DNA from: Mya arenaria
Taxonomy: Eukaryota; Mollusca; Bivalvia; Myida; Myidae
Direction: 5' to 3'
Assembly (NCBI RefSeq): GCF_026914265.1
Contig: NC_069136.1
Coordinates: 738,001 to 802,000, forward strand
DNA: 64,000 bases
In this document: positions 15,901 through 38,845 of the stretch, one piece after another
Layout of the letters: every line of letters starts with the position of its first letter
Position numbering within the stretch: position 1 is the first letter of the stretch
The notes under the pieces: generated by a model
The model's database searches: none
What the model saw: the letters and a program-made list of their open reading frames with translations, nothing else
Told to the model about the DNA's origin: nothing
Made by a program: the position numbers and the translations under genes

Positions 15901-18168
15901 ACATTGTACCAGCTATGCCGTAAGTATACGTGATTGTCTTCTTATTTTCTTGGGTCAATTTTCTTTTTGTATAGAAAAAACAATTATCCTTTAATGATTA
16001 TTTTTTCCCCATAGAATGCGAGATTAACGCGTTCGGAGTGGCCAACAACGTAATGAAGATCCCTGACGCCCAGATATCGGGTCACCTGACGTTGGGGACG
16101 GCACTTCCCTGGGAGGGGCGGTTAAGCTCCACTACTGGCTGGATTGGAAACGATACGGGCTCATGGCTTCAGGTTTTGTGTTCTTAACTTCTTACTGAAG
16201 ATAGATTGGATTAAAAAAAATCATAAGTAAAATGGAATGTTTACAAAAGCATCTCTATCACCCTGGTACTTTTAGGAATTACAAAAACTAAACCCTTATG
16301 TAAAACTATCAAATCACGCAAAAAAGGAACTCGCGGATGGAAAACGACCTAGTATATAACATAAAACGGACAATGCTTATATGATTTCTGGTGAATATCC
16401 TCCTCTTTAACAACCATCGTTTATATCGCCTATAGACACATGTTATGCACCAATCACTTGTAACCACTGCCCTCCCAGGTACGGGGTATACCGGGAATAT
16501 CCGGGGAAATGGGCCGGGTTTTTACCTTTCAGGTGGCCCCGCAGTGCCGGGCGAATGCCGTGGTTTTATCTTCGCTTTAAATATAGCGGGGAATGGGTCT
16601 TCCCTAGGGTCCATGGGGTGCGGGGGCATTTGGCGGGGATTTTACCATATGTTCGTCCCCGTAGGGCGGGGATTTTAGCCGGGGTTGGCTTGACCGCAAG
16701 TCAAAATCCCCGCTATTCCCCGGACCTGGGGGGGGGGGCGGTTACAATTGACTGGTGCATTAACCTCTCCCGATTGAATCCGGTCATTTCCTTACATGTT
16801 AATCTAGGTATGATGCGCTGGCATATGTTCGCTCCGGCGATCCAGGGATACCACTCCACCCTATAGATTGCATACATGTTTACCTCTCCTAATTGACACC
16901 TCCCCCTTCCCATACAGCTTGGCCTAGGACTGGTGCAGCATATGTTCGTTGTGGCGATCCAGGGCTACCACTCCTCCCTATCATACATGTTAAACTCTCC
17001 AAATTGACCCAGGCCCCTCCCCTACAGTTTGATCTAGGACTGATACGCCGGCATATGTTCACTGTGGCGATCCAATGATTCAACAGATCTTCAGACCACA
17101 CCAACCATTTTAGGTCGCCTGTAGATACCATAAATGTGAACAACTCCCAATGACAACATGATTCACCCCTCATGCATTCTCCATCCCAGATTGATCTAGG
17201 AGAGGTACGGCACATGTTCGCCGTGGCGACCCAGGGCTACCATTCCTCCACTTACTACACCTCGTCATTCAAGGTCGCCTACAGCCAGGATGGCAATAAA
17301 TTTGTGTATGCCCAGAGCAAGAACTCAGAGGTATGGACAAACATTGTTCGAGCGAGTTGCATCAAGCGAGGCTGCTATATTGTTATTTTTAAATCGAAAA
17401 TGATGATTATTTTTAATAATTATGATCGCCTTTCACTGTACGAAGAGATCTGACATATAATACTTAGAGTGCCTAATACTAAGTCGAATTTTTTTTTATG
17501 GAAAGACTGTGGATATTGCTAAAACCCTGGCTATATACCGCTACGAACAACTGCTTAGTATGATGATATTGTTTATATATGAAATATGTACACACAAGTG
17601 GTATTAATTAAATGTGTACAAATGTATATACGGAACCATTCATCGTAATCGAGATCCAGTCACTGCTGCCTGTACATCTAAAATGTTGATTTATTTAAAA
17701 CAAATGACAGAGCATAACATAAGCAAAACAAACAACAAAATATGCTTTGTGTACTGATAAAAACACGATATTGGCTATATTTGCTTACAAATACTTTTTA
17801 ACTAGAGAATTTGTGGCCGCATACCTATAAATTGAAAACCCATTTTATATAAGGCTCATATATTTCATCCGTACACAACTCCTAGTTTTTCTGTCTGGTC
17901 CTTAACGTCAAATAAGTTAAGAAAATAATGCACTAAAATCAATACTTTTCTTTTATGCATCCGTCTAGAAGGTGTTCCTTTAATATGAATATGACACTCA
18001 CGTATGCTTGCTTTGCAGTTCTTCAAGGGCTCGGCCAATTACGACATGGTACAGAAATTCGTCCTAGACCGGCCCGTCCGTACGAGGTTTGTGCGCTTCT
18101 TGCCGGAGCTCTGGCACAATGGCGGACATCCGGGCTTGCGCGTGGAGATATACGGATGTGACGTTTAA
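921..18168 (+). CDS. Gene A: secreted He_PIG/cadherin-like - EGF - discoidin (F5/8C) protein, 9 exons
   Basis: Exons: 921-973, 8121-8187, 9527-9613, 10553-10654, 10961-11150, 15647-15760, 16015-16172, 17190-17330, 18019-18168; 1062 nt, 353 aa. All introns are GT-AG and phases agree (2,0,0,0,1,1,0,0). The start is ATG in AAAATGGCGGC, giving signal peptide [17 protein letters not shown]. Two short modules follow ([31 protein letters not shown]), then a PPIW...LGTFLSG linker. The He_PIG/cadherin-like exon has the LPPGTSL...TGHVIG...APDIDATY...IRATD...KYAD pattern. The EGF-like exon has six cysteines ([12 protein letters not shown] ... CTCPLGYG). The F5/8C domain opens [11 protein letters not shown], contains [16 protein letters not shown], and closes with GLRVEIYGC just before the stop. 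Known F5/8C domains bind sugars, phospholipids or matrix proteins. An extracellular lectin, adhesion or shell-matrix role is inference. Genes C and D are paralogues. Confidence 0.85.
1112..2520. repeat. 37-bp minisatellite in gene A intron 1
   Basis: The unit contains CACTATACATGTATGCATGA followed by TGGCCATGACATAAATT. Outlying copies start near 1112 and the core runs 1290-2520 (about 33 units). Diagnostic variants repeat at exact multiples of 37: TCATGTCACA occurs at 1613, 1761 (+148) and 2020 (+259), showing a higher-order block of 7 units. The array begins about 140 bp after the exon 1 donor. Confidence 0.95.
2656..2802. repeat. Near-perfect palindrome, arms about 67 bp
   Basis: The left arm (from GTTGAATTCAGTGTAAAATC) is repeated inverted on the right (ending TTACACTGAATTCAACA), with a spacer of about 10 bp. 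CACGAGTG occurs several times within the arms. It would fold into a long hairpin and is probably a foldback/MITE relic. Confidence 0.85.
2803..3899. other. Gene A intron 1, no gene seen
   Basis: AT-rich intron between the palindrome and the LINE proteins. The distal part may be the 5' UTR of the LINE, but I cannot place its 5' end or a target-site duplication. Short open frames here have no recognisable content. Confidence 0.4.
3947..4558 (+). pseudogene. LINE ORF1-like protein (about 200 aa), native start lost
   Basis: The N-terminus is basic (K/R/N-rich), then an acidic DDDDDD stretch, then an RRM-like segment beginning KRFFVGGFG with [17 protein letters not shown] and [15 protein letters not shown], and a basic R/G/D tail. 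ORF1 proteins of LINEs bind the element RNA. The open frame begins at a GTG; the ATG at 3900 is in another frame and stops after 16 codons, so the real start appears to be lost by mutation. It overlaps the ORF2 start by 20 nt. Confidence 0.6.
4539..5638 (+). pseudogene. LINE ORF2 N-terminal part: AP-endonuclease, broken
   Basis: Endonuclease motifs are spread over three open stretches. NLATWNVTG and ICGIAEHWL lie in 4539-4853, which ends in TAA (4851-4853). QVYLPC and [11 protein letters not shown] lie in 4910-5116, which ends in [11 protein letters not shown] and the HFSTHRPI counterpart of SDHxPI lie near 5210-5330 (T where D is usual). The connecting segment runs to a TAG at 5636-5638. The enzyme nicks target DNA for target-primed reverse transcription; this copy cannot make it. 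Confidence 0.75.
5704..7269 (+). pseudogene. LINE reverse transcriptase, N-terminally truncated open frame (521 codons)
   Basis: RT motifs in order: [13 protein letters not shown] (first catalytic Asp), [30 protein letters not shown] (the xADD box, with S where Y/F is usual), then FIRLGVYCD. The C-terminal part holds a Cys/His cluster (CPHCKMQ ... GHHILFFC). The RT fingers that should precede [13 protein letters not shown] are absent: only about 65 bp separate this frame from the endonuclease connector at 5638, so an internal deletion of a few hundred codons is inferred. Confidence 0.85.
7856..8120. other. Gene A intron 1, distal part
   Basis: AT-rich sequence between the LINE tail and the exon 2 acceptor (TTGTTCCAG, ending at 8120). 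It contains GTGAAATGATCAAG and TGCATGAAATAAAA segments resembling the CACGAGTGAAATAAA theme of the palindrome at 2656-2802. No gene seen. Confidence 0.4.
8280..8895. repeat. 18-bp minisatellite in gene A intron 2
   Basis: The unit is ATATCAGACAATACAAAG with point variants (CAGACAAAGCG, CTGAAAATACAAAC), about 33 copies. 18 is a multiple of 3, which explains overlapping open frames on both strands (for example 8261-8653 minus and 8307-8531 plus). These are not genes. Confidence 0.95.
8945..9014. repeat. Inverted repeat around AATAGTGTACATGAATAAAT
   Basis: AATAGTGTACATGAATAAAT is followed about 30 bp later by its complement ATTTATTCATGTACACTATT; arms are about 27 bp around AATGAGGGGTCATT. A possible hairpin of unknown function in intron 2. 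The rest of the intron to 9526 shows no gene. Confidence 0.75.
9849..10322. mobile_element. MITE-like element, 474 bp, ~60-bp TIRs, 5-bp target duplication
   Basis: The left end, CAGTGTGTGTATACCACGTG with GCTACGTCGGAAGGCAA further in, recurs inverted at the right end (TTGCCTTCCGACGTAGC ... CACGTGGTATACACACACTG). AACAT flanks both sides (9844-9848 and 10323-10327). No transposase is encoded. It lies in gene A intron 3. Superfamily not assigned. Confidence 0.85.
11213..15415. repeat. 22-bp minisatellite, 4.2 kb, in gene A intron 5
   Basis: The unit is ACTATAGTAACGGTGACAAC plus AT, with variants such as TTTAGAAACGG, GTAACTGTG and insertions of ACAGCAT that lengthen some units. About 190 units. 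Longer blocks recur: the run starting TAACTGTGACAACAAACTAT is at 11851, 12232 (+381) and near 13171. The array begins about 60 bp after the exon 5 donor. Frames such as 15028-15306 (minus) are artefacts. Confidence 0.97.
16447..16758 (-). mobile_element. Dispersed inverted-repeat element, copy 1 (about 312 bp)
   Basis: The ends are GCACCAATCACTTGTAACCA and its near-complement ending ATTGACTGGTGC. Inside the TIRs is a homopolymeric C/G tract, then AGGTCCGGGGA-type sequence. The interior (GCCCCGCAGTGCCGGGCGAA, then a TATAGCGGGGAATGGG segment) is the reverse complement of copies 2 and 3. It has no coding capacity. It lies in gene A intron 7, 40 bp before the decayed exon copies. Confidence 0.85.
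16799..17078 (+). pseudogene. Three decayed tandem copies of the exon 8 start (discoidin domain)
   Basis: Near 16799, 16918 and 17028 are sequences resembling the 5' end of the real exon 8 (17190). Translations are [40 protein letters not shown] and [16 protein letters not shown], against [20 protein letters not shown] in the real exon. The second and third follow acceptor-like CATACAG and CCTACAG. Intron sequence is duplicated too (CATACATGTTnA..CTCnnAATTGA at 16870, 16981 and, weaker, 17132), so the unit of about 110-160 bp spans an intron-exon boundary. Copies 1 and 3 end in stops soon after the match. Confidence 0.8.
17331..18018. other. Gene A intron 8, no feature seen
   Basis: Unremarkable AT-rich intron. 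The donor GTATGG at 17331 and acceptor CTTTGCAG at 18018 are clear. No repeat array or open frame of note. Confidence 0.6.
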
Positions 18169-20482: not shown

Positions 20483-21543
20483 TTTTATGCATAAAACATT
20501 TTGAAAGCAAGTGCCCCCACAAATACTGAAATTAAACGAACAACCCGAAGCAATAAACAATTTATTTTGTTTTGACGACCGTACAAACACAGTCCTCTGA
20601 AAATGGGCATTTCCCCTGGACACTGAAATACCTCGTAATGGAATGTCGACAAAGCAATAAAACGGCAAAAAAGAATAAATCTTCTTCGCATTCGCCTCTT
20701 GAAGAACATTTGTAGTGCGCGAGAAATGATCTGTGAAATGATTTGTGTTCAGAGTGACATCAATATAGATATGTTGTGCTACAATTAAATTAATGTAATG
20801 TATTATAATCAATAAACTATTCTATTTCGCAAGTAATACTTTTCTAAGGAAATCATAATTTAAGAATTTTTGATGGCGGATTACCGTTTTTGCGGATAAA
20901 TACAAAATGGTAAGAGTTCCCAACTAATTGTTTATTGCAGTCCATTCAAATTAGATTTTATTCAAATAAATGAATGAAAAGAGAAAAGAGGTTTGCTTGG
21001 TGCTACCAATTAGTAATAGAACGCAGAATTTTATTTTATCATGCACGTCTATTGCGACGGTACAATTTAGCCTAACATATATTATTTATAATTTACTTTT
21101 TTCAATTTACCATTCAAAATGTTACAACATGGGTATTGCAAAGACACACACAAGTATGTTACTGGGTATCGCCCGTGTTGTAGATTGATAAGTCAATGAA
21201 TATAATGTGGTATGCATTGGAGGAAAACAAATCCTGATTAATATTAAAGTAATGTCAAATTGATTTGATATTAAAGTAATACACTAAACATATTCCACCA
21301 GGATACCCGATGTTGCCCATCGCAATCAGCTAGTGTTTCAATTGGGTTCTTAAAGAGTTAGATTTTGCTGATCGTGTTTGAGTAGTTCTTTTTGGATAAG
21401 TTATTATATTAAGTTATTGTCATATTTGGTAACGATGTGAGATGAAAAATTTAGAAAGTTATTTTTTATCATTTTTTTTTCTTATAAAATTAAGAAAGAT
21501 ACATAGTTATGGCATTATCAACAGCCTCCTTTTAATTAATATA
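20481..21543. other. Intergenic stretch between genes A and B
   Basis: AT-rich. Small open frames (20970-21188 plus, 20480-20812 minus) carry no domain I recognise. The missing first exon of gene B could lie here or further right, but I could not identify it. Confidence 0.4.
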
Positions 21544-21717: not shown

Positions 21718-22139
21718 AACAGCATTCCCTGGTAACACCGCTACGATCTGTTTCATCAATACATCGTAGACGCCACGAATATTGCATTTGGTGTTCCATG
21801 TAGTGGAGGAGTCCCGTGACCCTCTCATCCCTTACCCTTCTCTGGAGCATAATTTCCATTGATTGTGAAACTCACAGGCTTATTATCATATCGGATTCCG
21901 GTGATTTCCCTCCCATTCTCCAACCATACCAGAGAAAATGTAGATATTACTATTAAACGGTTTGTTTTTGTGTATTTTAACGTATATATTTTTGCAAATC
22001 GACATGCCTACAGAAGCGATATAATCAACTCTTGTATTTCAGTATGGTCACTTTATTCTCGTACTCCGTGATTTTATCATAGAGAGGCAGGGCGGGGAAC
22101 CGGCTTGGGGGCGGATTCAGTACGTACACACTAAATTCA
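21718..22139. other. Intergenic, no feature seen
   Basis: No repeat, gene or regulatory motif that I can support. Confidence 0.4.
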
Positions 22140-22230
22140 AATTATATTGACGATGAGATTGGTCAAGAGGTAAACATGGCCGTATACTGCAAAGCTGCGG
22201 GTGCGAGCCCCTACACAAAATGGTTTCTAC
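22140..22230 (+). mobile_element. Possible tRNA-derived SINE head
   Basis: GATTGGTCAAGAGGTA resembles a Pol III A box, and 35 bp later GGGTGCGAGCCCC resembles a B box, with tRNA-like spacing. No cloverleaf with a clear anticodon arm could be drawn, so it is not a tRNA gene. The 3' end of a SINE body is not defined. Confidence 0.4.
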
Positions 22231-22429
22231 CCATGAAATTGGCTTATTAAGAATAATTTCTAGCTGTATTTACAATCGAGCTAAAATCATTGGTATAATC
22301 AAAAGATTTGAATGCGATGTTCTAGACCGGGCAGGCTCAGTAGAACGTATGGTAGATACCAAACTATTGTGCAGAACGTACTAGCACATGTGAAGTGATT
22401 GTTCAGTGTCGTGCACAATGTACATTGTC

Positions 22430-22480
22430 GTCTATGAATGTTCATTGCATGTAAAAATCATGCAATGAATATCCATAGAC
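22430..22480. repeat. Inverted repeat, 22-bp arms
   Basis: GTCTATGAATGTTCATTGCA is followed after a short spacer by its near-complement TGCAATGAATATCCATAGAC, with related CATGCAATGCACATTCATAGA just downstream. Perhaps part of a small foldback element. Confidence 0.65.
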
Positions 22481-22565
22481 ACATGCAATGCACATTCATA
22501 GATGGCTGACAGTATAGCCAATGGTGAGTACACGCTAGAGAGTGTCAAGTGATGCGACTGTGTAT

Positions 22566-22894
22566 TTGGAACACCTCGGACATTTCCATAGAAAACAACT
22601 CGGATGTATGCCGGAACATCAACGGAAGTAGTTCGTAATATTTTAAATGATAGTATAATAAATTTATCAATTATAGTGTTTTAACGTGTATTTGTATTAC
22701 TTAGTTTAAATTGATTGCCAGTGAAGTGTATTATTGTATAAATAATTAAGAAACCGAAGAGTTAAAATCATTAAGTTTAACTGCTTAATTGAAATTATTA
22801 CGCGATCTACTTGTAGTGTAATTAAGATTTCTGAAATTTCCGTCCAAATACATCCGATGTTGTTTTCGGTGCAAAATGGCCGAGGTGTTCCGAA
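22566..22894. mobile_element. MITE-like element, about 329 bp, ~50-bp TIRs
   Basis: TTGGAACACCTCGGACATTT with AACAACTCGGATGTAT on the left is mirrored by ATACATCCGATGTTGTTTTC and AATGGCCGAGGTGTTCCGAA on the right. AT-rich interior without coding sequence. Upstream of the first recognised exon of gene B. Confidence 0.75.
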
Positions 22895-23347
22895 TGGCGA
22901 CTGTGTAGCCTTTTAAGATGTAACCGTATCTGTAACTAAATCAAACGAACATGAACAACAGTGGTTGCGTATGGAACAATGAGAAAGGCGCACGATGCTC
23001 GTGTCAGTGAACATATATGGAAACATTCAAATATTATTTGAAGCTTATGATATATGAATAAAGCATTCCGTCATGAAATTATGCCTGCCAATTTCTTGAA
23101 ACTCTGAAGTCCCTTTGGACAAAAACTCACTAAAAAATTCTATAATTCGCCTTACGTTTACTTCATAAAGAACTTTAGACTTTAAAATGGATTTTATATA
23201 AACTTCAAGACAGCCACAATAAAGCAGTATTCGTCTATCAAAATCAATTAAATAAGCTACATCAGCCCGTTAAGTTTCGAGAAATTGGGACCTGATCTTC
23301 ATTGAAAATCGTTTTTTGATATAACTGCAATGTATTTCACATTACAG
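22895..23347. other. Flank or intron upstream of first recognised gene B exon
   Basis: No exon recognised. It ends in the acceptor TTCACATTACAG at 23347. Confidence 0.4.
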
Positions 23348-26300
23348 TGCAAGAGCGAAATGCGAGTATGATTTCGACAATAACTTTGTCTACGATGACA
23401 ATGTTGCTGACACTATCATCACCCTGGCAATTGACGTGCTGGGTAAGTTACGTGTTCGAATATGTGTATTGGTAAGTCACGTTTTCGGACATGTTTATGG
23501 GTAAATTACGTGTCCGAATATGTCTATGGGTAAGTAACGTGTTCGAGTATGTGCATTGGTAAGTTACGTGTTCGAGTATGTGCATTGGTAAGTTACGTGT
23601 TTGAGTATGTGTATGAGTAAGTTACGTGTTTGAGTATGTGTATGGGCAAGATGCGTGTACGAGTATTTGTACGAGTAAGTTACGTGTTTGAGTATGTGTA
23701 TGAGTAAGTTACGTGTTTGAGTATGTGTATGGGTAAGATACGTGTTTGAGTATGTGTATGGGTAAGTTACGTGTTTGAGTATGTGTATGAGTAAGTTACG
23801 TGTTTGAGTATGTGTATGAGTAAGTTACGTGTTTGAGTATGTGTATGAGTAAGTTACGTGTTTGAGTATGTGTATGGGTAAGTTACGTGTTTGAGTATGT
23901 GTATGGGTAAGTTACGTGTTTGAGTATGTGTATGGGTAAGTTACGTGTTTGAGTATGTGTATGGGTAAGTTACGTGTTTGAGTATGTGTATGGGTAAGTT
24001 ACGTGTTTGAGTATGTGTATGGGTAAGTTACGTGTTTGAGTATGTGTATGGGTAAGTTACGTGTTTGAGTATGTGTATGAGTAAGTTACGTGTTTGAGTA
24101 TGTGTATGGGTAAGTTACGTGTTTGAGTTTGTGTATGGGTAAATTACGTGTCCGAATATGTCTATGGGTAAGTTACGTGTTTGAGTATGTGTATAAGTAA
24201 GTTACGTGTTTGAGTATGTGTATGGGTAAGTTACGTGTTTGAGTATGTGTATGAGTAAGTTACGTGTTTGAGTATGTGTATGAGTAAGTTACGTGTTTGA
24301 GTATGTGTATGGGTAAGTTACGTGTTTGAGTATGTGTATGAGTAAGTTACGTGTTCGAGTATATGTATGAGTAAGTTACGTGTTCGTGTCTGTGTATGAG
24401 TAAGTTAAGTGTACGTGTATGTACGTGCATGTGTATAAATTCCAAATCAGTTTATTAAGAATATGCTGTCTTGTTAGTTACTCGATCAAATGACAAGATG
24501 CAAGGTATTCAATTCAAGGTATGCAATATTGTAGAATATGAGTTTGCATTGTACCGAGTCAAATGCATGCTTCAACACTGTTTGCCTTAATGTATTATAT
24601 GTTTGCTCAATGCGACCGACCAAACTGACCGCTCACTTGACTGTCGCTATAATTTGTTGCTTGAATAATTGGATACTTGAAAAATGGTAAACAGTACGCT
24701 TTTTTAAGGAAAACTTATAAACCAATTATACACAAAATGCAACTCATTCAAAATTTACTGTACGGTTTAACATCTTAAAACCGTTTTGCACAAAAAAGAA
24801 TCTGTATTATGGCATACAGAATTATCATATCCGGTCTTTTTTTCTAATATATTTACTAGTCAATAACCCTATGAAATCAATCAAAAGGTCATTTTATGGA
24901 CACGTGGCATTCTCGATGCATATTCATATACTGTTACGCCAAAAACCCAAATCAGAACAATTTGGGTGGCGTTTCCATAGAGACAGCCTTTCATTTGCAA
25001 CAAGCTTAATTCTAATGTACATATCTAAAAAGTGTCAGTGAATTACGTCATTTTTGAAGACATGAGAGCACTTTTTCTGCGTTTTTATTGAATTTAAAAT
25101 CATTTTAGTCTTTATGCCAATTGTGGACATGTTATTTTAGTAATGTTATCTAGTTTTGTATTAAAACTTTCAAGTCATAATAAGTACGTTCCTGATTTTG
25201 ATATTAACCTTAACATATCAGTGTTCATGCGCTAATGTCGTCATTATTGAGGGCCGTTATTTGGCGACGGCTTTATTTTTAGAGTAACGTACTTTCAAAG
25301 CACCTGCAAGTTGGAACAAAAGAGTAAACATCCCCGGTTTTCCAAAAGCAATGACTGTAAATATATGGCATTCATAATACTATTTTAGACACTGGTTGTA
25401 AAACAGACAAAACCTATGGTTTGAGTAACTAAGTGCGCCACTTTTAGAATAATAAATTATACCAGACTAGCCTCGAAATATTGAACCATATACTATGTTT
25501 CATTTAAGGTTTACCCAAGGAACCCCTGTTGGAGATGATCGGGGAATACTACCTGACGTATCTGGAAAAACGAGGCTTTGATGAGATGTTGCGTAACCTC
25601 GGGCACAACGTGCTGGAGTTTCTACAGGTAACAGTCAACTGATACATACTTTCAATCATTAATGTAATATTCAAGAATTGAAAATGCTTAAATCATTAAT
25701 AAGCCCTTTTCATGACAACTATAACAATTTCACTCAACCACGATCCGTCCGACAAATATCAACACTTGGTAACTTGCATTATATATTGTCCTTTCGCTAT
25801 TGCAGAACTTAGATTCTGTGCACGTGTTAATCAGACGGGACTATCCTGATATGGTGGCGCCATCTTTCCGGTGCGATGAAGATTCCTCATCCGACAGAAT
25901 GGTCCTACACTACTACTCAAAGCGAGAAGGGTTGCACTCAATTGTAAAAGGCAGGCGATCTCAATCAAATTCTAAATACGATTAAAACATTGATATTCAT
26001 AGTTGGAGACCCTGAAAATCATTAAAGCAACACAAACAGTACCTATATTTCAGCTCTCTTTTAAACTGGGAAATTTGTGGTGACGTTGCTATTTATTGAA
26101 CACCATATTTATAAGCTGATATTTTCAACTGAACACAAATCGTTTTTTTTATCATTAAAGTCAAATGAGCTAACATAATTATGCATAAAAATAAGTAAAT
26201 TTATTTTCATGTTAAAAACTACAGTTGACAAGTTATATAATCGACTTTTGTCCTCCATTGTTTCAGACATTTATCCGACCAGACAGTATGCGTATTGTTT

Positions 26301-29300
26301 TGATAGGGAAAATTTCCTATACAGTTATAGTGAAGGGCAACGGTAGAGTTATGGTCCTTGTATGATTATTGACATTGCATATGCTTGTTAACGACAGGTC
26401 TTACTGTTGAAGCGGCGAAGAAATTCTACACAATGCAGCTAGAGATGAGTGTAGTCTCCATAGAAACAATCAAGGTGTCGGAAGAAAACGGTTTTCGTGA
26501 GCACGTGACTTTTGACGTCACCGCTAAGAAGATTAAAGAGCAAATTATAGAGGAGGGACCTCCCACTTTTATCGCACAAACTAAAAAACACAGCGAGAAA
26601 CAGATACTGAAGGAGGTAAGCATTCCAGTTTTAAAAACAGCTTTAATTGCATCAACCATCTATATCGGCATTTAAATTAAACTAAACTATTTAAATTAGC
26701 AATGGAATATTATTTAAACACCCCTGATCACCCATACGCCTGGTGACTCTTGAGTCAGAGTATATGTTTGCAACTCTGTACAGCGAAATACTACTCCCTC
26801 GTACACACCTAGAGTGATACAGCAAACATAATACCAGAGAGGCACTTGGTGCGATCCATTATTCATTCTCATAACGTAGGACTCTAGCTAGATGGTTATT
26901 GGAGGGTGCTGGAACCACAATTATGTCCTCATGGAGACTAGAATGTGCATTCTCTTGCAATCAGAGAATTAAATGTTTTTGATAATCAAATATTTAGCAG
27001 TTACAAACCTTATATTACTTGAAATAAGGACAATCTTTTAACTTATTAACTGCCCGATACAATGTGCCCTTTTGTCCCTCAGACCCTATTTCCTTTCCTG
27101 TAGCACCCTGTTCTTTTTAAATCCCGACTAAACGCCTAAAAACGACGTGACCGTCTAAAAAATAGAACACCTTGTCATATATATTCATATATTTTAGGAT
27201 GTCGAGGCAGTTAAACAGAAGCTCGAGCAAATCAGACTCCAGCTCGGTGAAAATGCCCTTCCTTTGAATAGAAAGACATCGGTACAAGCAAGATGGAAGA
27301 TTGCAGCCAAAATCACCGCAATGCATCGTGGGTTTGTTCCGAACTACCCAGAAACCCTTGCGATAAACCCCCGGATGTTCATTGAAATGTTTCCGTACCA
27401 CGTGATCTTCGACAACGAAATGAAAGTAGTCCAATCAGGGATCAAGATACAGGTGATAACAATACAAATTCCTTTAAAGGGCCGGCCACAGTGAAAAGAT
27501 GGGTGGGGAAAGTACAATTTTAAAACGTTTCAAAAGTTCAGAAAGTAGAAAATACATTTTGGGGAGAAAACTACATACTTGGTGACATGTTTTGGGATTA
27601 AACAAATTTTACAAAAAAAGATTTTATCAGATTTCGGATAAAAAACATTCACATTCTTTCGGAAAAATCTGTCAACATTGGTACTATGTTTTTCTGTCAA
27701 AATGCCCTAGATTATATTATCAATGATTATGTCTTGATAGTTAGTTAGTGATGATATATTTTCAAATAAGAAAATGATTAATAAATAAAGGAAAATAGCG
27801 GATGAAATTCATTTCCGGGTAACAAAAATGCAAATATCTTTTTTTTTAAAAATAGCTGCAATCACATCAAAGCCACAAAACAAACGACGTTTGCATTGTG
27901 ACCGGCCCTTAACGACGGTAGTTTGACTAAGGCTCATAAAAGTTTACATAGACACACAAACACAACGCGATTATATATTATAATAAGCAACATGCTACGG
28001 CGTTATCATAAGCCTGTTCACAACATTGCATTAGGGTGTGTTATAAGGTTGGATGTTTTCTAAGGTAATACAAGGACCGGGTATACTTGCAGGTATAGCA
28101 ATTTCTATGAAACCGAATATAATCACGATAAAACTATGAAAAGGTACACGACCAATAACTTAAATTTAACCAAGATCTGGCCCAAGGGCATAGGGCAAAC
28201 ATTCACCAAGCAAGACAATCTGAAACCCATGAAAGAAATTAACAGTTGTGTTTATCCTACAGATGTTGATGCCAAGCATCAGAAGTCGCCAGGCGGTGTT
28301 GTCCGACTTCTTCCAGGTGCGCTGGCCGAGCTGTGTGGATCTGAACTACGAGAACATCGGGAGGTTTGTCCTGTGTCCGTTCATCTTGGAGTTCAGGCGT
28401 GACGCCATGGAGAGAGAGTGGAATGATCGACCCGCCCTACAACTTAAAGGTAATTTAAGTTCATCAAAGGCGTTTTCTTTATGATTTATTATAATCTCCA
28501 AATACAACCGAATCAGTTGCCTATTCTACCAACTAACATCCGTTCACTCTTGTTTTGAATACCTTTTGTTTCAATTCCCTTTCGCAAATCCGCTTCCAAA
28601 CTTTCCTAGATGCAATGATTTTATCATCCCATACATTCTTTTTGTCGGATGTTTCTACCACTTAATAGCCCTTTTCTTTTCGTCTTCCCTCACCAACTGT
28701 TAGGCATCTTCGCAAACAATGAACGTATCCACACGCATTGACCATTGCAATTATTGTGTGTCTTATTACAACTCCTCTCCGGCCAATGTGTCTATTCCGG
28801 GAGAATCGTTCTGACTTGTTCAGGTTGTTCCAAGCCGCTCACTTCGGGAAAGAAATTACAAATATCTGCAATATAAGTTTTCTTTCAGATATTGAAGATT
28901 TGATCTATTATGACTCCTCCTCTCTCATTTCCTAAGGTCAAATGTTTCTGCTCCGGGACCGGGGGTTCTACGCGTATATGGCATCCCCGGCCGCTCATTG
29001 CTGGGCAGACCTGGAGAACCGGAAGTTGAAGCTCTCAGACATCCCCATGTGGGACGTCACGCGGGACTTCCTGGTCGCCAACCTCGAGTATAGGTAATTA
29101 AACAAAGAGAAAATAAACAAGCTTCTTTAAATCTTATGGAATCAGACCCAGACAAAAGCAAATTCTCTGATGCATTTATTTTGATACCTGATGACCCCAT
29201 ATACGTTTGCACTTGCGGAACTAGCGCGCCTCCTCCTCCTGAAATCGTCCGAGTTTAATCTTTATTTTAATATAGGTGAAAAAAAAAGAATAAAATACGC

Positions 29301-32300
29301 CCAAAATGCACCATTTCGGACTGTATATTGTTAAATATTTCTTGAGGGTGGGGTACCCCCAAATCCCACCATCACGGCTTTAAACATAATAAATCGGTTC
29401 TGATGGAGGGGCGCAAGTCAAAAATTTACGACCCCTTAGTTATGCCCCCTCTTTTGTTTTCAATTAAATGGTAAATGCTGGCTAGGATGGCATAGACATA
29501 CGGAAATCTTTCAATGCCATTTAACTTGTTTGATGTATAATTTTCGGTTAAATGATATATTCTTATTTTAACAAACACAACCGTTTCAAATGAAACCAAA
29601 GTAATATGGGGTTGCAATGCATAACAGTTGTATACATATTTCTGGGCCGGTTCTTGAAAGGGCATTTTGTCCAATCGAATACCAAGTAAAGCGTCATGAA
29701 AGGTTGTTACGTCACGAATTCACGGTGGCCGAAATTTAATATAGGTATTTAAAGGAACACGTTTATTAATGAATTCAGAACATGAGTATAAAGATATGAA
29801 TGACATTATCTAAGTCTTTTATTAGGCAAGACGTTTGAAATTTGTTAGTGGTTGACTGCATTACAAAATCGAAATTTGTAATGTCAATACCGATAATTTC
29901 CATATATTTTTAAATACATCTTATTATAATGCACTAGTCAGTTGTAACCACGCCCCCCCCCCCCCCAGGTCCGAGGAAAAACGAGGACTTTGACTATCGG
30001 TCCAACCAACCCCCAGTAAAATCCCCGAAATGCGGAGACAAACTGCTGGTAAAATCCCTGCAAAAAGCCCCCACACCCCAGGGGCATCCTATGTTAGGCC
30101 AATTCCCCGCTATTTTCAGCGCGAAAACAAAACCACCGCAGTCACTCGGCACTGCGGGGTCACATGGAAGGTAAAAACACGGCCAATTTCCCCCGCTTTC
30201 CCCAGTATATATCCCCGGACCTGGGGGGGGGGGGCGTGATAACAACTGACTGGTGCATAAGTCATGTGTCGATCTGTTGTATTTAAGATGTACCCCTTGC
30301 CTATTAACACCTTGTCGAATCTCATTTCTGATCAAACAGAATAATTTACACACATAACAAACAGAAAATGCATTGAAACCAATGTGCGAGCAAGTCTGAG
30401 CGGCTCGCAGACGGATGGACGGCGCATCTCCGTTTCCGGCGCGCGGCGTGGAAGCCTTGGTGACGAGGCGGCAATCAGGGACCGGATATCGAGGCTGCAG
30501 AGTGAAGCAGAGAAGGAGCGCCGGAAGAACGAGGCCCTCTACTCGGCGTTCCTCCCAAAAGACGCAATTGATCTTGTGAATGGAGGACTGGTTCCGTATG
30601 GAGGTAAAGTTTTGAATTTACTTCACTGTTGTTTTTAGTGTTTATGTATAATGAAGCAAGCAATGAAGACCATTGTTCGAATGATCGATTGATTGATTTA
30701 CTGATAGAATGTTTAATTGTTCGATTGTGGTTGTTTGGCTTGTTTGTTTGTTTGTTTGTTTGGTTGGTTGGTTGATTGGTTGATTGGTTGATTGATGGAT
30801 TAACTACTCGGTAAATCGATAGGTCGATTGGTTGATATAGTAATTTGTTAGATACATGTAATTGATTTATTTGATAATTCGATCAATTCCATTCGCCTAA
30901 ATCTTCCCTCGTTTAAACTATCAAATTATTTTTACAAGATTTCTAATGATACTCATTTGTTAAAAAAGTGCAAAATTCAAACATGCGAATGCATTAAAAT
31001 TAGTGTTTTCAAAACATTTCGTTTTCCACAGACTTCCAGCCCCAGGTGACCGCGCTGTTCTGCGACGTAGTGAAGTTTCTACCCATCGTCGCTAAGAGCT
31101 CCCCACAGGACGTGATAGGAATGTTAGATGCCATGTATACCACGTTCGATAAAATCACCAGGGTGCACGATACTTACAGGGTTTGTGTGGATGAATTAGG
31201 CTTAAGGTCCTAAAACCCGCTCACTCAGATGGGGGCGCCTTTTGTTTGAGCGGGTTTTAAGGCTGAATTTTATAACGTTAAATAAGTTTTATGCTTGTGA
31301 CATTTAGAAGTTTTGTGAAAGGCATTTTCCTTTGTGGTATATGCAGCAGCCTGTAGTCATTCAAGAATATTAACAAGTATTAAAGTGCAAACTTGTTCCA
31401 AATTATAACTAAATAATCGTTAGAACGCTTGTCAAAATTTTATTGAGATACTTATGTTAAATGGCAAAGGCAGAAAAACAAAGAATCTCGGTCGGGTTGC
31501 ATAGTTTTCCAGGAATCTCTTACCCAACTTAAATATCCCAATTTAAATCGGTGGCTATTGTGTGTCCCATTTAAGGGGCTATACACCGTATGATTAAATA
31601 GCGAAAAAAAAGAAGAAAATTGTCGAAAATTGACATAAACTTGGTATCGATGTGTATGCATTGATGCATTGAAACTAACTAACTGAAGTACCACATAGTT
31701 TACAGTTAATTTATTTTTCGCAGCGATGTTATCACGTGATGTTACCAAGTTAGTTATATAACTTAAATATTCCAACAGCAATCGTATTCCATCATAGCAC
31801 AGTGGATGCAACACTGCACTGCAACTTTGGCGACATTTCTTTTTACATTTTGGTATTTTTTTACAATTATGATATCAAAGAGTAAAACATTATATTAAAT
31901 AATTATCCTGAGATTCGTTACAGAAAAATACTTTTTGTTGTGCCAATCTGGTAAATTGTCCCTTTAAAAGCAACAATACTAGGTTTCAATTTCAGTTCAT
32001 TAGCTTCCAGTTTTTGCAAGATTGAGCAAAAGTAGTTCGTATTAGCTATAAGTGAATTGCTCCGTTCAGGTGGAGTCTATTGGGGACGCGTACCTCGTGA
32101 TCGCGGGAACGGGGAACCAGAAGGAGCATCACGCGGAGAGAGTCGCCAACACCGCCCTTGGGATGCTGCTGGCCGCAAGGAACATTAAGGCGCCTCCGGA
32201 CAATATTTCGGTTACGGTAAGTTTGGCGTCGAAGTTCCATTATAAATTACCTTAAGTTATAGTTTATATGCTATTTAAAGTACGTTACTAATGAATTATT

Positions 32301-33927
32301 CTCTATCTAAATAAAAACACAGTGTACTAAACTCTATTTCAAAAGCTCCGCATTGGTATCCACACCGGTTCCCTAGTAACGGGTGTCCTTGGCAACCGCT
32401 TGCCCCGGTTCGTTGTCATGGGAGAGACGACCGTTGTCGCCTCCAAACTGGAGAGTCACAGCGAGCCAGGCAAAATACACGTCAGTCCGACCACGCAGAC
32501 GTAAGTTTATTTATTACCTTAAAATATTTCATCCTATGAGTGTCCGGAACATGTTTGGTACAAACTTCAATACGTGATGTATAGAACAAATAAGTTTGTA
32601 CATCCGCTTATGACGTGAATAGCTTGTACTCTCGTCTTCCATGATTTTGATCAGATTTGATAAGCCATATAGGAATTTACCTTTACACGTTTTAATCCAT
32701 AGGATCCTTAAAGACAAGGGGTACCAGTTCGAAGCACGGGGCAAAATTGATCTGCGAGGATACGGTCCGCTGGAAACCTACTTCCTTGTGAAAAACGATC
32801 TATTTTCGGACGAGGAGCTGATTGGTCGTTCCCATGGTAACCAGGAAGTGACGTACATCAATGAGGGCAAGGTGGAAGCGACATTTGCCAAACAAAACAA
32901 GGTTCATCCGTTAACAACAAGCCCACCATCTGGCGGTAGGTATAACTTTGTTTAAAACGAAACAACACTTCTGTACGACTATATTGTTTCATCACAGTTT
33001 ACAATAATGTAAACCTTAATTTCATGAACTGAAAGGGTATGGGTGGCTTAAGGAGACATACATGTTATTTTTCAGCTCGATACAACGACTAACGAATCTC
33101 GACTATGGTATCTCGTTAAAACGACTTAGTATCCTGATTTAGGTATATCTTTAGAACGACGTACGTACATATTGGCCAATCAGAATCAAATATTAAAAAT
33201 AAAACATACCAAAGATCAGCCGTTCATCGTCCTTGTTTACACTCGGTTATAAGGTGACTCTGATTGACCAACTAAGTGTTTGAACGAGATACGTAAGTCG
33301 TTTGAACGAGATAAAACTAGCACGCGTGTTACCTCATTGCCACCGGAAGTCTCCTATGAATGGTTTTTGCATGAGAAATAGCTCATATATTACCCTTTAT
33401 TGATATATTGTCCGGCAAAGTTATTCTGTGATGACATTATCGCATAAGATTTATAGTGGCTTAAGTTGACCCCTTCGCCCCCCCCCGTACCCCCGATTTT
33501 AACAAAGATATTCAGTAAATTAGTTTACAGTACACAAAAATGCACCATTTTAGAAATATTTTGTTTTTCTTAAGTCCTCCTTTATTTGCGTTACCGTCTA
33601 ACGCCGGGTCTATCCCTCACAACGTTGATGGGAGTTGGTAATGTCGTTGCTAATGTTAAAACAAGAAATACAGACATCCGACAGAAAATGTTTTTGTGTT
33701 GTTTACATAAAGAGGGTAATTTCTAAATGTTTTAAAAAGATACAATTGAAAAATATCAATATGTTTCACCATGCAACTTAATTGTGTTCTAAAGGGAAAC
33801 ATAAAAGCATCTGTCAACCTACTATTGTAAACACAATTATAATACTATTAACATTATTTTCGTCTCAGGAGCCAGTCGACAATTGACTGGCGAAAGCGAG
33901 GACACCATTATCGAGTTCAAGAAGTAG
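23348..33927 (+). CDS. Gene B: soluble guanylate cyclase-like protein, first exon missing
   Basis: Exons: 23348-23442, 25509-25627, 25806-25950, 26398-26615, 27198-27452, 28263-28449, 28937-29093, 30395-30603, 31032-31180, 32070-32216, 32346-32500, 32703-32935, 33869-33927; 708 aa visible, phases consistent. About 33-40 N-terminal residues of the H-NOX domain are missing. H-NOX: LDSVH gives the proximal heme His and HYYSKREGL keeps the Y-x-S-x-R heme-propionate motif. HNOBA: NPRMFIEMFPYHVIFD, ending in LKGQMFLL and LSDIPMWDVTRDF. A linker with RRISVSG and RRGSL precedes a coiled coil. Cyclase: FCDVVKF and ESIGDAY keep both metal Asp residues and the guanine-site Glu. PRFVVMGETTVVASKLES has Val at the guanine-site Cys, Val at the transition-state Asn and Lys at the Arg. 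The family makes cGMP in response to NO or O2, usually as a dimer. A 55-residue Ser/Thr-rich tail ends EFKK. Confidence 0.88.
23443..24420 (+). repeat. 29-bp minisatellite starting at a gene B splice donor
   Basis: The unit is GTAAGTTACGTGTTTGAGTA plus TGTGTATGG, about 33 copies. The first unit begins at the GT of the 5' splice site of exon 23348-23442, and nearly every unit carries (G/A)GTAAGTTACG, a strong donor-like sequence. Units at both edges are more diverged (TTCGAATATG, GTGCATTGG). No exon-like sequence separates units. Confidence 0.96.
24421..25508. other. Gene B intron, rest
   Basis: AT-rich. No gene or array recognised. Confidence 0.5.
25951..25956 (+). promoter_or_regulatory. 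Non-canonical GC splice donor
   Basis: The exon ends GTAAAAG and the intron starts GCAGGC. Joining at this point (phase 1) to 26398 gives SIVKGLTVEAAKKFY, which matches the conserved H-NOX run after HYYSxREGL. Reading through instead gives 11 codons and a stop. No GT lies at a position that keeps the frame. Confidence 0.8.
27476..27910. mobile_element. MITE-like element, about 435 bp, in a gene B intron
   Basis: The ends are AAAGGGCCGGCCACAGTG and its near-complement CATTGTGACCGGCCCTT; TIRs are about 20 bp. It starts about 24 bp after the donor of exon 27198-27452. No coding content. Confidence 0.7.
28450..28936. other. Gene B intron
   Basis: A C/T-rich intron with no recognisable element. 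The frame at 28738-28935 merely runs into the following exon's acceptor. Confidence 0.5.
29094..29930. other. Gene B intron, left part
   Basis: No gene. The stretch at 29270-29440 (AAAATGCACCATTTCGGACT, then GGGGTACCCCC, then GGAGGGGCGCAAG) resembles decayed dispersed-repeat material also suggested near 33480-33590 and 47040-47310. Confidence 0.4.
29931..30256 (+). mobile_element. Dispersed inverted-repeat element, copy 3 (about 326 bp)
   Basis: Same family and orientation as 19183-19496. The ends are GCACTAGTCAGTTGTAACCA and its near-complement ACAACTGACTGGTGC, with long C and G tracts at 29955-29966 and 30223-30234. The interior holds TTCCCCGCTATTTTCAGCGC and CACTCGGCACTGCGGGG. It is about 140 bp before the gene B exon at 30395 and is intronic. 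Confidence 0.87.
30737..30800. repeat. (TTTG)n/(GGTT)n/(GATTGGTT)n microsatellite
   Basis: GTTTGTTTG runs into GGTTGGTTGG and then GATTGGTTGATTGG. Related TGATTGATTGATT sequence lies on both sides. Gene B intron. Confidence 0.9.
31570..31970. mobile_element. Possible MITE, about 400 bp, in a gene B intron
   Basis: The ends TTTAAGGGGCTATACACC and the complement of GGTAAATTGTCCCTTTAAA match at most of 18 positions. Nothing coding between. The match is short. The rest of the intron (31181-32069) is unremarkable. Confidence 0.45.
32936..33868. other. Gene B last intron
   Basis: No gene. The segment at 33100-33320 contains ATCTCGTTAAAACGACTTAG and GAACGAGATACGTAAGTCGT, related to TATCTCGTT...ACTAAGTCGTTAAAACGAG at 45895-45935 and to sequence at 53396-53535: probably an old dispersed repeat. 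A C-tract lies at 33479-33486. Confidence 0.5.
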
Positions 33928-34224: not shown

Positions 34225-36190
34225 CACGTGCACAAACTCTGTCCAAGCTATGTTTGTGATATTATATTTACAAGTATATAGTAGATTACGATATCACGTG
34301 CACACACTCCGTCCAAGCGATGATTACGAAATACACGTGCACACTCCGTCCAAGCTATGTTTGTGATACTATATTTACTAGTAAGTAGTAGATTACGATA
34401 TACACGTGCACACACTCCGTCCAAACTATGTTTGTGATATTATATTTACTAGTATGTAGTAGATTACGATATACACGTGCACACACTCCGTCCAAGCGAT
34501 GATTACGAAATACACGTGCACACTCCGTCCAAGCTATGTTTGTGATACTATATTTACTAGTAAGTAGTAGATTACGATATACACGTGCACACACTCCGTC
34601 CAAACTATGTTTGTGATATTATATTTACTAGTATGTAGTAGATTACGATATACACGTGCACACACTCCGTCCAAGCGATGTTTGTGATATTATATTTACT
34701 AGTAAGTAGTAGATTACGATATACACGTGCACACACTCCGTCCAAGCTATGTTTGTGATACTATATTTACTAGTAAGTAGTAGATTACGATATACACGTG
34801 CACACACTCTGTCCAAGCTATGTTTGTGATACTATATTTACTAGTAAGTAGTAGATTACGATATACACGTGCACACACTCCGTCCAAACTATGTTTGTGA
34901 TATTATATTTACTAGTATGTAGTAGATTACGATATACACGTGCACACACTCCGTCCAAGCGATGATTACGAAATACACGTGCACACTCCGTCCAAGCTAT
35001 GTTTGTGATACTATATTTACTAGTAAGTAGTAGATTACGATATACACGTGCACACACTCCGTCCAAACTATGTTTGTGATATTATATTTACTAGTGTGTA
35101 GTAGATTACGATATACACGTGCACACACTCCGTCCAAACTATGTAGATTACTATATACACGTGCACAAACTCTGTCCAAGCTATGTTTGTGATACTATAT
35201 TTACTAGTAAGTAGTAGATTACGATATACACGTGCACAAACTCTGTCCAAGCTATGTTTGTGATACTATATTTACTAGTAAGTAGTAGATTACGATATAC
35301 ACGTGCACACACTCCGTCCAAGCTATGTTTGTGATACTATATTTACTAGTAAGTAGTAGATTACTATATACACGTGCACAAACTCCGTCCAAGCTATGTT
35401 TGTGATATTATATTTACTAGTAAGTAGTAGATTACGATATACACGTGCACACACTCCGTCCAAGCTATGTTTGTGATACTATATTTACTAGTAAGTAGTA
35501 GATTACTATATACACGTGCACAAACTCCGTCCAAGCTATGTTTGTGATACTATATTTACTAGTAAGTAGTAGATTACGATATACACGTGCACAAACTCTG
35601 TCCAAGCTATGTTTGTGATACTATATTTACTAGTAAGTAGTAGATTACGATATACACGTGCACACACTCCGTCCAAACTATGTTTGTGATATTATATTTA
35701 CTAGTGTGTAGTAGATTACGATATACACGTGCACACACTCCGTCCAAACTATGTAGATTACTATATACACGTGCACAAACTCTGTCCAAGCTATGTTTGT
35801 GATACTATATTTACTAGTAAGTAGTAGATTACGATATACACGTGCACAAACTCTGTCCAAGCTATGTTTGTGATACTATGTTTACTAGTAAGTAGTAGAT
35901 TACGATATACACGTGCACAAACTCTGTCCAAGCGATGATTGTGATACTATGTTTACTAGTAAGTAGTAGATTACGATATACACGTGCACACACTCTGTCC
36001 AAGCGATGATTACGATATACACGTACCCATACTCTGTCCAAGCTATGTTTGTGATTCTATACTTACTAGTACATAGTTGATTACAATATACACGTGGACC
36101 CTCCGTTAAAGCTATGTTTGTGATTCTATATTTACTAGTGTGTAGTATATTGCAATATACACGTGCACACACCTTCCAAGCTATGTTTGT
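34225..36190. repeat. 71-bp satellite-like array downstream of gene B
   Basis: The unit contains ATACACGTGCACACACTCCG, TCCAAGCTATGTTTGTGATA and CTATATTTACTAGTAAGTAG. About 28 full or shortened units. Short units (the CGATGATTACGAAATACACG type) and full units form longer blocks: the segment at 34355 recurs at 34818 (+463), and those at 34997 and 35068 recur at 35607 and 35678 (+610). Every unit carries a CACGTG palindrome. Units near 36000-36190 are diverged. Confidence 0.96.
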
Positions 36191-37098
36191 GATACTGTAT
36201 TTTCTTGTACGTAGTTTTTAGAAGTTATAACTTTTAAGCGTACACATGATATTATTTTTTAGATTATGTATCGCTTGTTAATGATGCACATGCGCAATTG
36301 CTAATATGATTTACAAACGAATTACTGTAGAATCATAAATAGGAACGTTGAACATTCTATTTATCGCACATGAAGAAGTAGTTTTGTTAAAAAAACCAAT
36401 GCATCAATACAGCTTTCTTTCCAAATATACAGCGATAAAAACATATTTTATTAAATTTCATTCCTACTGTATGCCTTAATAAGTTGCCAATGTTTGGTAT
36501 GGAAATAAAAGTTCATTTTCACTTGGGTGGTTTTCTTCCTACCGCTTCTGAAAAACAAAATGGAACAAGTTCTTATTTCAAGGCAAACTGAATTCTTATT
36601 ATAAAGAGAATATACGGCGTGTTGATTTTAAAATCGGCACTGCACTGTATATCTAATTGCCCCATGGTGAATACTCAAACAACTGGTTTAACCCCTCTCC
36701 CGTTCCCCACTGAACTCCTAGTTCACGGACCGGTCCAAGGCTGTGACCCCAACAATTATTGATACATACTTATAAATGCAAGGTGCTTTTAAACACGTCC
36801 TGTATCATCCTGCTAATGCGCTTGTCCCTGTAGTTTCTATTTGAACATTATATGCATGAACGTTTGTGACAAAAATATTCCTGTATCTTGCGAACATATA
36901 TTGTGCTTATTGGCCCAACCAGTAGTAAACATATATTCGGGAAGCTCCAAAGTATGCCGACGGACGCTAGTGTCGGTTCAATTGAGACTGTTCATTGACA
37001 TCACTAGTTGATACAACACTGTTCCGCCCCCCCACCCCCTCCCGATATACCGGTGTGTGCGTTAGTCCATTATAATCGGCGTATTCAAGTATTCAAAC
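36191..37098. other. Intergenic between the 71-bp array and gene C
   Basis: No gene. TTTATT at 36447-36452 is AATAAA on the minus strand and could be the gene C polyadenylation signal, about 650 bp past its stop. A C-tract lies near 37025-37045. Confidence 0.4.
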
Positions 37099-38845
37099 CT
37101 AAAAACTTTCCATACCTACCATATAATCGTAGCATCCGAGCATCTCAATCCTGAACGCTGGCCGGTATGACGTGTTCCATGTTAGCGGAAACACGCGAAC
37201 GTAACGTGACGTCATCACGCTAGGCAATGTTGTCGTGTGTGTCCCGCTTCCGGTGTTGCCGGCCAGGCGCTGCAGAAAACAGAAAATTATACCTAGAGGG
37301 AATTGCTGGTCAGGATTATCACAAATGTTATACTAAATAATAGAAAGATCATATTTGAATAAGCAGAAATAAAAACGTAGGAGACATGTACTATATACTG
37401 GTATAATTCGAGGAGATAACAGCGTAAACAACAAAAATGTAGTAAAGACACAGATTGCATGTAAAAGAAAAAAATAAACAACTGTTGGTAGGTGGTTGCG
37501 TTGAATGTTACTTATATCAATAACATAGATTCATTTTACGAGTATCGAGACTGGAATGAAAGATGGCGAGGTTTGTTGGAGACGGAAGTCGTGAATTTTG
37601 TGAATTGTCTGATAGCTGGAAATAAATAACTCAGGAAATCAATGCGTTCAGTTATACCTGTGTGGTGCCGGTGTAGTCGGTGTAGTTTGAGAACACGTCG
37701 CCATCTAGACTGTACTGCATGTAGAAATACCCCGTATAATACGTGCTGCTGTAGTACTGAATCTGGACGCCATAAATGTCAGTGGTGTTTCCTAAATGGG
37801 AGAAAAACGGTAGATAGCTGTAGCGGATATTAACAAACACAGAGAGGCGAAGCCGTTTACCAAAATAAATCAGTAAAAAAGAGGCCATTCTTAACCTGTG
37901 GCAGTAATGTAATTTTGAAGCCTCTGATATGATTGATATATCCAAAAATTAGGCAGAGCTAGCCACAAAGAAAAAATAATGTTTGGTAAAGGAGACTCCA
38001 CGCATCATTGTCGTCCAGGCGTGTCTAATACGCATGTTATTCGAAGACGTACTGTAGCCATTAGTCAATGAGGGCGGTATTAGGAACTAACAAGGCATTA
38101 AGAGAAGTAAGCTCTGTTCCAAGCACTAATTTGTCTGATGGTGACGTGTTACTTAAGTATATGTTTCATTAAAAAAGAAGGGTGTTAGCGACTAATAAAA
38201 GCAAAATAAGTAGGCATATTGAAGAGTTGACGCCGTACCAAGTACGACTGCCGTCCAGGAAGCTGGTAGGCATTGCTACTCAAGTTTATAGTCAATTGAA
38301 AAAGAGCGGTGATAGCTACTAACCGAAGTCAATCTGTAAGTATGAAGAAGAGTCCACGCCGTACCAGGCAGTACTTCCGTCAAGACGCGCTTGATTAGCT
38401 TGGTTGGTACTATACATGTTGTAGCCGGTGAGGGCGGCATTTGGAACGACCTTTAGGCTGTTCTTGATACCGAGTGGATTAGTAGCGCAGTCTAAAAATT
38501 GAACAGACGAGTGTTAGTCCCGTTGTTTGATATTGTGTCCACTGACTTAAATGCATGCATGGAATTCATACAGTGTAAGAAAAACGTGTTGACAGATGAA
38601 TGTATTTATGCAGCGACATCTCATATATATTGTATATACAATATACGCTAGAAAGCGAGACTTCGATGTTTATCAATAAACTTTATCTATACAGAACGGG
38701 CAGCCTTTGTCTAAATGTCATTCACTCGATCCACACCGATAAGTTGGCAAAGTTAGACGTTAGTCAATGTTACGGTTCGGTCTACCAAAGGCACTATCGG
38801 CGTAAGGTTGTCTAGTTACCTAAGGGTCCGCCTTTTGCATCCGAG

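Follow-up and report, generated by a model that had tools for sequence, protein, structure and literature searches.

We analysed a 64,000-nucleotide stretch of the Mya arenaria genome (the window; bases 738001-802000 of contig C15, in a genome of 1.216 Gb and 18 contigs) and found that it contains an intact soluble guanylate cyclase (sGC) gene, single-copy in genome searches with PF00211, PF07700, PF07701 and the protein itself. In standard animal sGCs, the alpha subunit provides the metal site and carries no heme, and the beta subunit carries heme and provides the rest of the catalytic site. We favor, at a probability of about 0.58, a model in which the window gene encodes a subunit of the beta2 lineage that would serve as the metal-side half of a heterodimer while retaining heme. 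A subunit that combines heme with the metal half alone would mean that the heme split and the catalytic split of sGCs can come apart.

The gene model, built by reading exon ends, comprises 14 coding exons on the + strand (22043-33927, the latter ending the stop codon) and encodes 744 residues from Tyr2 to the stop. Across these 744 codons there are no stops and no frameshifts, and every exon phase fits. Twelve of the 13 introns are GT-AG and one, after position 25950, is GC-AG; this GC donor is credible because both copies of a related gene on contig C14 are split at the same residue and in the same phase. Third-position GC content is 0.62 in codons versus 0.35 in introns. Pfam matches to HNOB (4e-36, residues 6-163), HNOBA (9.5e-25) and Guanylate_cyc (7.5e-50) are all over cut-off, and the resulting order of H-NOX, HNOBA and class III cyclase domains identifies an sGC. 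A spliced aligner given the finished protein returned the same exons, a run that tests the code only. The features of the model, with their support, are:

20907-20909, + strand: candidate start codon, ATG followed by donor GTAAGA (weak; inferred)
22043-22119, + strand: exon, H-NOX N-terminus, YGHFILVLRDFIIERQGGEPAWGRI (splice sites and phase fit; joins the 23348 exon)
23348-23442, + strand: exon, H-NOX (gene model; HNOB match)
25509-25627, + strand: exon, H-NOX (gene model; Pfam)
25806-25950, + strand: exon, H-NOX with LDSVH, HYYSKREGL (YxSxR) and the Ile145 equivalent; GC donor at its end
26398-26615, + strand: exon, H-NOX end and linker (gene model)
27198-27452, + strand: exon, long linker and HNOBA start (gene model; Pfam)
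28263-28449, + strand: exon, HNOBA, ending LQLK in phase 1 as in C14 (gene model)
28937-29093, + strand: exon, HNOBA (gene model; Pfam)
30365-30603, + strand: exon, signalling-helix region, with an insertion carrying RRISV and RRGSL (gene model)
31032-31180, + strand: exon, cyclase, first metal Asp in FCDVV (gene model; residue comparison)
32070-32216, + strand: exon, cyclase, guanine Glu and second metal Asp in VESIGD (residue comparison)
32346-32500, + strand: exon, cyclase, altered beta-side motif RFVVMGETTVVASK; Arg equivalent to alpha R574 kept
32703-32935, + strand: exon, cyclase end, Arg at the Lys593 equivalent (residue comparison)
33869-33927, + strand: last coding exon and stop codon (gene model)

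An earlier note on this DNA had begun the gene at 23348; the exon at 22043-22119 joins the 23348 exon in phase and displaces that start. Pattern and stricter-score scans of the window for a first exon gave no match. A relaxed scan found 22043-22119, with the top two of 6280 scored upstream positions lying on this exon in the same frame, one residue apart. Among three ATG/GT-type matches in the 22 kb upstream, only that at 20907 has GTAAG, and the exon after it opens in phase 0 with YG. About 0.3 such ATG-donor 8-mers are expected by chance, and position 20907 is a plausible start codon. The peptides quoted in the note (LDSVH, HYYSKREGL, FCDVV, VESIGD and, at 32346-32500, PRFVVMGETTVVASKLES) all lie in frame in this one gene model, and its human alpha1 motif GNNVTLANKFES agrees with chain 6jt0_A. 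A different exon over the catalytic segment, which the note had considered, is not in evidence: the flanking introns are only 129 and 202 bases long. The exon itself (32346-32500) has no other genome match above 52% identity among the 75 candidates scored out of 102, a search that gives lower bounds.

Two introns of the H-NOX region have features of their own. A 29-base minisatellite of 33.6 copies (23440-24412) starts at the donor of the exon ending at 23442, and its consensus contains GTAAGT, so that this intron holds many donor-like copies. Within 25942-26345, a phase-0 GT donor (ATT/GTAAAA) occurs in addition to the GC donor at 25951, together with a possible in-phase exon at ~26268-26343 that could add ~25 residues directly after Ile145. 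We regard alternative splicing of the heme pocket through this exon as a low-confidence prediction.

For comparison we used the other sGC loci of the genome, whose counts are lower bounds:

C3, 38.58-38.60 Mb: beta1
C3, 38.64-38.65 Mb: alpha, with the proximal His replaced by Gln
C4, 79.9 Mb (C4a) and 23.9 Mb (C4b): two sGC loci with distal Tyr
C14: beta2-like gene, in two inverted copies plus fragments, with a full catalytic site

The labels 88E-like for C4a, 89D-like for C4b and beta2-like (after vertebrate GUCY1B2) for C14 serve as working labels. Eight catalytic positions of human sGC are listed in a passage of PMC3591389: D486 (alpha), E473 (beta), D530 (alpha), R574 (alpha), C541 (beta), N548 (beta), R552 (beta) and K593 (beta). 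At these positions, in this order, we find:

Window subunit: D E D R V V K R
C14: D E D R C N R K
C4a: D E D R C N R K
C4b: Y E D R C N R (position 8 outside the aligned part)
Receptor-type cyclase L004: D E D R C N R K
Receptor-type cyclase L006: E D R C N R at positions 2-7 (positions 1 and 8 outside the aligned part)
Beta1 of the genome, human and Manduca: G E D T C N R K
Alpha of the genome: D E D R C T K (position 8 outside the aligned part)
Alpha, human and Manduca: D E D R C T K P

At positions 1, 3 and 4, which alpha contributes to human sGC, the window subunit is unchanged, and it keeps the guanine Glu as well. All of the beta-supplied positions 5-8 (Cys, Asn, Arg and Lys) are changed, to V V K R. 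The earlier note had read the retained Asp, Asp and Glu and the first three changes correctly; the replacement of Lys593 by Arg is a fourth. Like a working alpha, the subunit has the metal Asp pair and the R574 equivalent and lacks Asn and Arg, and it departs further than alpha in having Val at the Cys position, where alpha keeps Cys. It does not show the beta1-type set, in which Gly replaces the first Asp, the Cys, Asn, Arg and Lys are retained, and Cys78 and Cys214 are present. The losses are focal, with 8 of the 31 lost conserved columns falling in the 14 columns round the altered motif, and the adjoining IGIHTG, TGVLGNRLPR and GKIHVSPTT remain conserved. Both beta1 of the genome and C4b lack the first metal Asp, making each complementary to the window subunit. 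C4b (locus L060, C4 ~23.858 Mb) has Tyr in place of that Asp (FTYMVGF) and keeps Cys, Asn and Arg, a mirror image of the window subunit in its catalytic residues.

The H-NOX domain holds equivalents of H105, P118, C122, Y135, S137, R139 and I145, in line with the beta-type His and Y-x-S-x-R that the earlier note had reported. The complete heme-ligand set is thus present, including the proximal His and YxSxR, and the absence that marks alphas does not apply. Nor does the subunit have the distal-pocket Tyr of O2-sensing Gyc88E/89D-type proteins, found in C4a and C4b; its equivalent residue is Ile145. A section of PMC1435932 assigns Ile at this pocket to beta1 and beta2 and Tyr to O2-sensitive clades, and on that basis we consider the window pocket NO-type. 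The domain should bind heme as beta1 and beta2 do, and it is more likely to sense NO (or CO) than to hold O2 in a stable complex.

We next placed the gene among its relatives, using this one genome with human and Manduca chains and sequence alone. Three introns, IVK<1>G, LK<1>GQM and VPYG<1>DF, are common to the window gene and both C14 copies in the same phase. In beta1 of the genome all three stretches (IVKG, LKGQM and VPYGDF) are uninterrupted. In the genome's alpha the first stretch is uninterrupted, a phase 0 intron precedes GQM by five residues in the second, a phase 1 intron lies six residues from the third, and the H-NOX portion sampled is a single exon. For C4a and C4b the comparison covers the first stretch, which is uninterrupted, and the third, which carries a phase 0 intron. 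The window gene and C14 also agree in the lengths of three cyclase exons (149, 147 and 155 bases). The three exclusive in-phase introns indicate common descent with the C14 beta2-like gene; with beta1 the window gene has other introns in common, at VL<1>G, at Q<2>T and near W22. H-NOX identity to the window subunit is 38% for C14, 32-36% for beta1 and 21-28% for alphas.

Intron positions are more telling here than the tree. The combined tree has ten rows, with AU (approximately unbiased) tests forcing alternative placements; the spliced models of distant paralogues were made with a raised intron penalty, a low penalty having produced spurious micro-exons. The small N-terminal exons of C14 are doubtful, as are the linker and an inserted V in GDAVY in the C4b model. 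In this tree the window gene falls outside two starred clades, beta1 (100/99) and alpha (100/100; three alphas), with neither placement formally excluded by AU. C4a and C4b form their own clade (100/99), and the window gene groups with C14 at 87/91, not a starred branch. Separate H-NOX and cyclase trees mostly lacked resolution. The gene looks like neither alpha nor beta1 and, because it shares intron positions with C14, its alpha-like residues most likely arose by loss within the beta2-like lineage. With the C14 protein it has in common the heme His, Ile145, Cys122, the domain order, the three exclusive introns and the three equal cyclase exons. C14, unlike the window subunit, keeps all eight catalytic residues, Cys78 and Cys214; the window subunit has four catalytic residues changed, both cysteines lost and longer linkers.

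The two C14 copies (36.866-36.953 Mb, loci L047-L056) match at 77-89% over their 12 longest shared DNA segments. Between the copies lies an H-NOX fragment (36.910 Mb), and a cyclase fragment is located at 36.866 Mb. The pair is probably an old inverted duplication, not a haplotype artefact.

In the model we favor, the residues, gene structure and intron kinship described above would translate into a heterodimer as follows. The cyclase domain of the window subunit would give the metal side only, through its two Asp and the Arg that corresponds to alpha R574, and a partner would supply Glu, the guanine Cys, the ribose Asn, the phosphate Arg and Lys. Candidate partners in the genome are beta1 (C3), the 89D-like C4b and the complete C14 beta2-like subunit. 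Such a dimer would carry heme on both subunits, with two H-NOX domains reporting to one working site, and the identity of the partner and of the gas are predictions of the model. The residue comparison here supports the earlier note's proposal of a heme-type subunit that gives the metal side and needs a partner.

Parallels exist for parts of this arrangement. Alpha1 (human 6jt0_A, Manduca 6pas_A and the genome's alpha on C3) resembles the window subunit in keeping D, E, D and R without Asn and Arg; alpha has T and K at positions 6 and 7 where the window subunit has V and K. Unlike the window subunit, alpha has Cys at position 5, no heme-site set, other introns and a separate clade. C. elegans GCY-35/GCY-36, in published work, are heme-bearing beta-like subunits in a heterodimer, like the dimer proposed here. 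That likeness concerns heme and heterodimerization, with the catalytic residues outside the comparison. Sections of the literature describe their nematode clade as sister to vertebrate beta2 (PMC1435932) and call GCY-35 an alpha subunit (PMC3192831). This clade has a distal-pocket Tyr at 138 (Phe in GCY-37) and GCY-35 binds O2, whereas the window subunit has Ile at 145 in beta1 numbering. Drosophila Gyc89Da and Gyc89Db are likewise heme subunits, thought to pair with Gyc88E according to part of PMC11344882. C4a and C4b, their likely relatives in this genome by label, differ from the window subunit in their distal Tyr and their own clade. GCY-35/GCY-36 and Gyc89D with Gyc88E provide precedent for heterodimers of heme-type subunits. 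The earlier note had called the combination unlike standard alpha or beta, which stands, but its novelty was overstated given these heme-bearing heterodimer halves. Among the papers listed in literature searches we recognised none on this gene or on a heme-bearing half-site subunit, and one may exist.

A more specific version of the model is tempting, and we offer it tentatively: the window subunit could be a second, independently evolved 'alpha', derived from the beta2 lineage, that discarded its beta half and kept heme, giving a sensor on both subunits of a dimer with one site. In this version a kinase could gate the signalling helix through an insertion in the linker. From DxTRD to LYS (HNOBA end to cyclase start) the window subunit is 24 residues longer than human beta1, and the insertion carries RRISV and RRGSL, eight residues apart. 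R-R-x-S is a PKA/PKG-type site. When the protein was shuffled 5000 times, two R-R-x-S/T motifs fell within 12 residues in 16 trials, and 289 trials had two anywhere. The linker from H-NOX to HNOBA is likewise long. Such a subunit would suggest that the alpha role arose more than once. If the model holds, it would offer a natural test of the role of a second heme in the dimer, and of whether losing beta-side residues suffices to force heterodimerization.

Several observations weigh against the favored model. The window subunit keeps 49 of 80 columns identical in complete-site cyclases (61%), the lowest of the rows checked; the genome's alpha keeps 53/72, human alpha 58/77, the genome's beta1 57/77, human beta1 63/81 and C4b 51/68, these five spanning 74-78%. 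At the window subunit's own rate, at least four losses among the eight catalytic columns are background (P 0.37). Confinement of the losses to the beta side is only mildly improbable, at 1/35 for seven positions or 5/70 with Glu counted as beta-side, and positions 5-7 lie within 12 residues and hence are not independent. Lys replaces the conserved Gly that follows the first metal Asp (FCDVVKF). On lineage, grouping with C14 falls to 34/2 on the cyclase alone, and AU does not reject placement with alphas (p-AU 0.237 combined; 0.329 cyclase only), with beta1 (0.079; 0.184) or with the C4 pair (0.128). The equivalents of Cys78 and Cys214 are Leu and Ile, which counts against simple NO regulation. 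We take these to be the two cysteines missing from C. elegans sGCs. A passage of PMC1435932 describes the nematode proteins as lacking two cysteines that are required for NO activation of mammalian beta. Overall, statistical support for a preserved half-site is modest, and we infer a kept half-site because of the beta-side split, the focal change and the general logic of alpha subunits.

The main rival draws on this same divergence. The gene may encode a pseudoenzyme: as a regulatory or dominant-negative subunit with heme-based sensing, it would join a catalytic subunit without forming a working site, and so tune or block its partner. Catalytic-column loss that does not fall below background, the fewest conserved columns kept, Lys for the Gly after the first Asp, and a branch length of 2.73 in the cyclase tree, where no other branch was flagged as long (median 0.48), all suit this explanation. 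It fits less well with retention of both metal Asp, the guanine Glu and the R574-equivalent Arg, and alphas also lack positions 6 and 7 yet are productive partners. We consider it unlikely, if a serious competitor.

It is improbable that the subunit forms a homodimer whose altered active site makes a different cyclic nucleotide or, lacking Asn and Arg, works slowly. Homodimeric sGCs are known in an atypical clade, according to part of PMC1435932, and the basic Lys at position 7 and Arg at position 8 might partly serve. Against this, the Asn has become Val, and human beta1 Cys541Ser alone is reported, in a section of PMC3591389, to cut activity strongly. Another passage there gives Asp as the residue of adenylate cyclases at the guanine-Cys position; the window subunit keeps the guanine Glu and has Val for Cys, not Asp, so that the changed nucleotide preference raised in the earlier note finds no footing. 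Because Asn and Arg are changed as well, the beta-type half that the subunit itself carries has more probably lost its activity than acquired a new substrate.

Equally hard to sustain, and a shade weaker, is a true alpha relative that kept or regained its heme site and inherited its alpha-like residues rather than converging on them. Besides the AU tests above, it could appeal to the resemblance of SKLES in the window subunit to NKLES in alpha. The intron positions and phases match C14 and not the genome's alpha, the window gene lies outside the starred clade of the three alphas, and H-NOX identity is highest to C14. A decaying pseudogene, for which divergence and the one GC donor might speak, is scarcely credible given 744 codons free of stops and frameshifts, fitting phases, the codon-intron difference in GC content and a GC donor at an intron position common with C14. 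Chance open frames were rejected on the stop-free codons, fitting phases, coding composition and Pfam domains.

Elsewhere in the window, a 71-base tandem repeat (34284-36216; variants of 108, 113 and 184 bases) lies just downstream of the sGC gene. No Rfam family reached its gathering score within the window, and a PDB search with one exon gave five matches, all artificial repeat proteins or fusions. A LINE-like (long interspersed nuclear element) sequence at 4539-7266 has a reverse transcriptase frame at 5632-7266 (PF00078, 4.5e-11) after frames at 4539-5635, the first of which has no Pfam match. F5/8 type C exon-like frames lie on the + strand at 17154-17450 (1.3e-07) and 50803-51237 (8.5e-07), and a similar-looking frame on the - strand at 37655-37948 has no Pfam match. 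The lone cox1 match of the genome is at the start of C18, which is probably the mitochondrion. Finally, ~53900-63200 is a long repetitive stretch open on both strands, with VVYLNYLTYKCTWDTG-like frames, and is probably satellite DNA.

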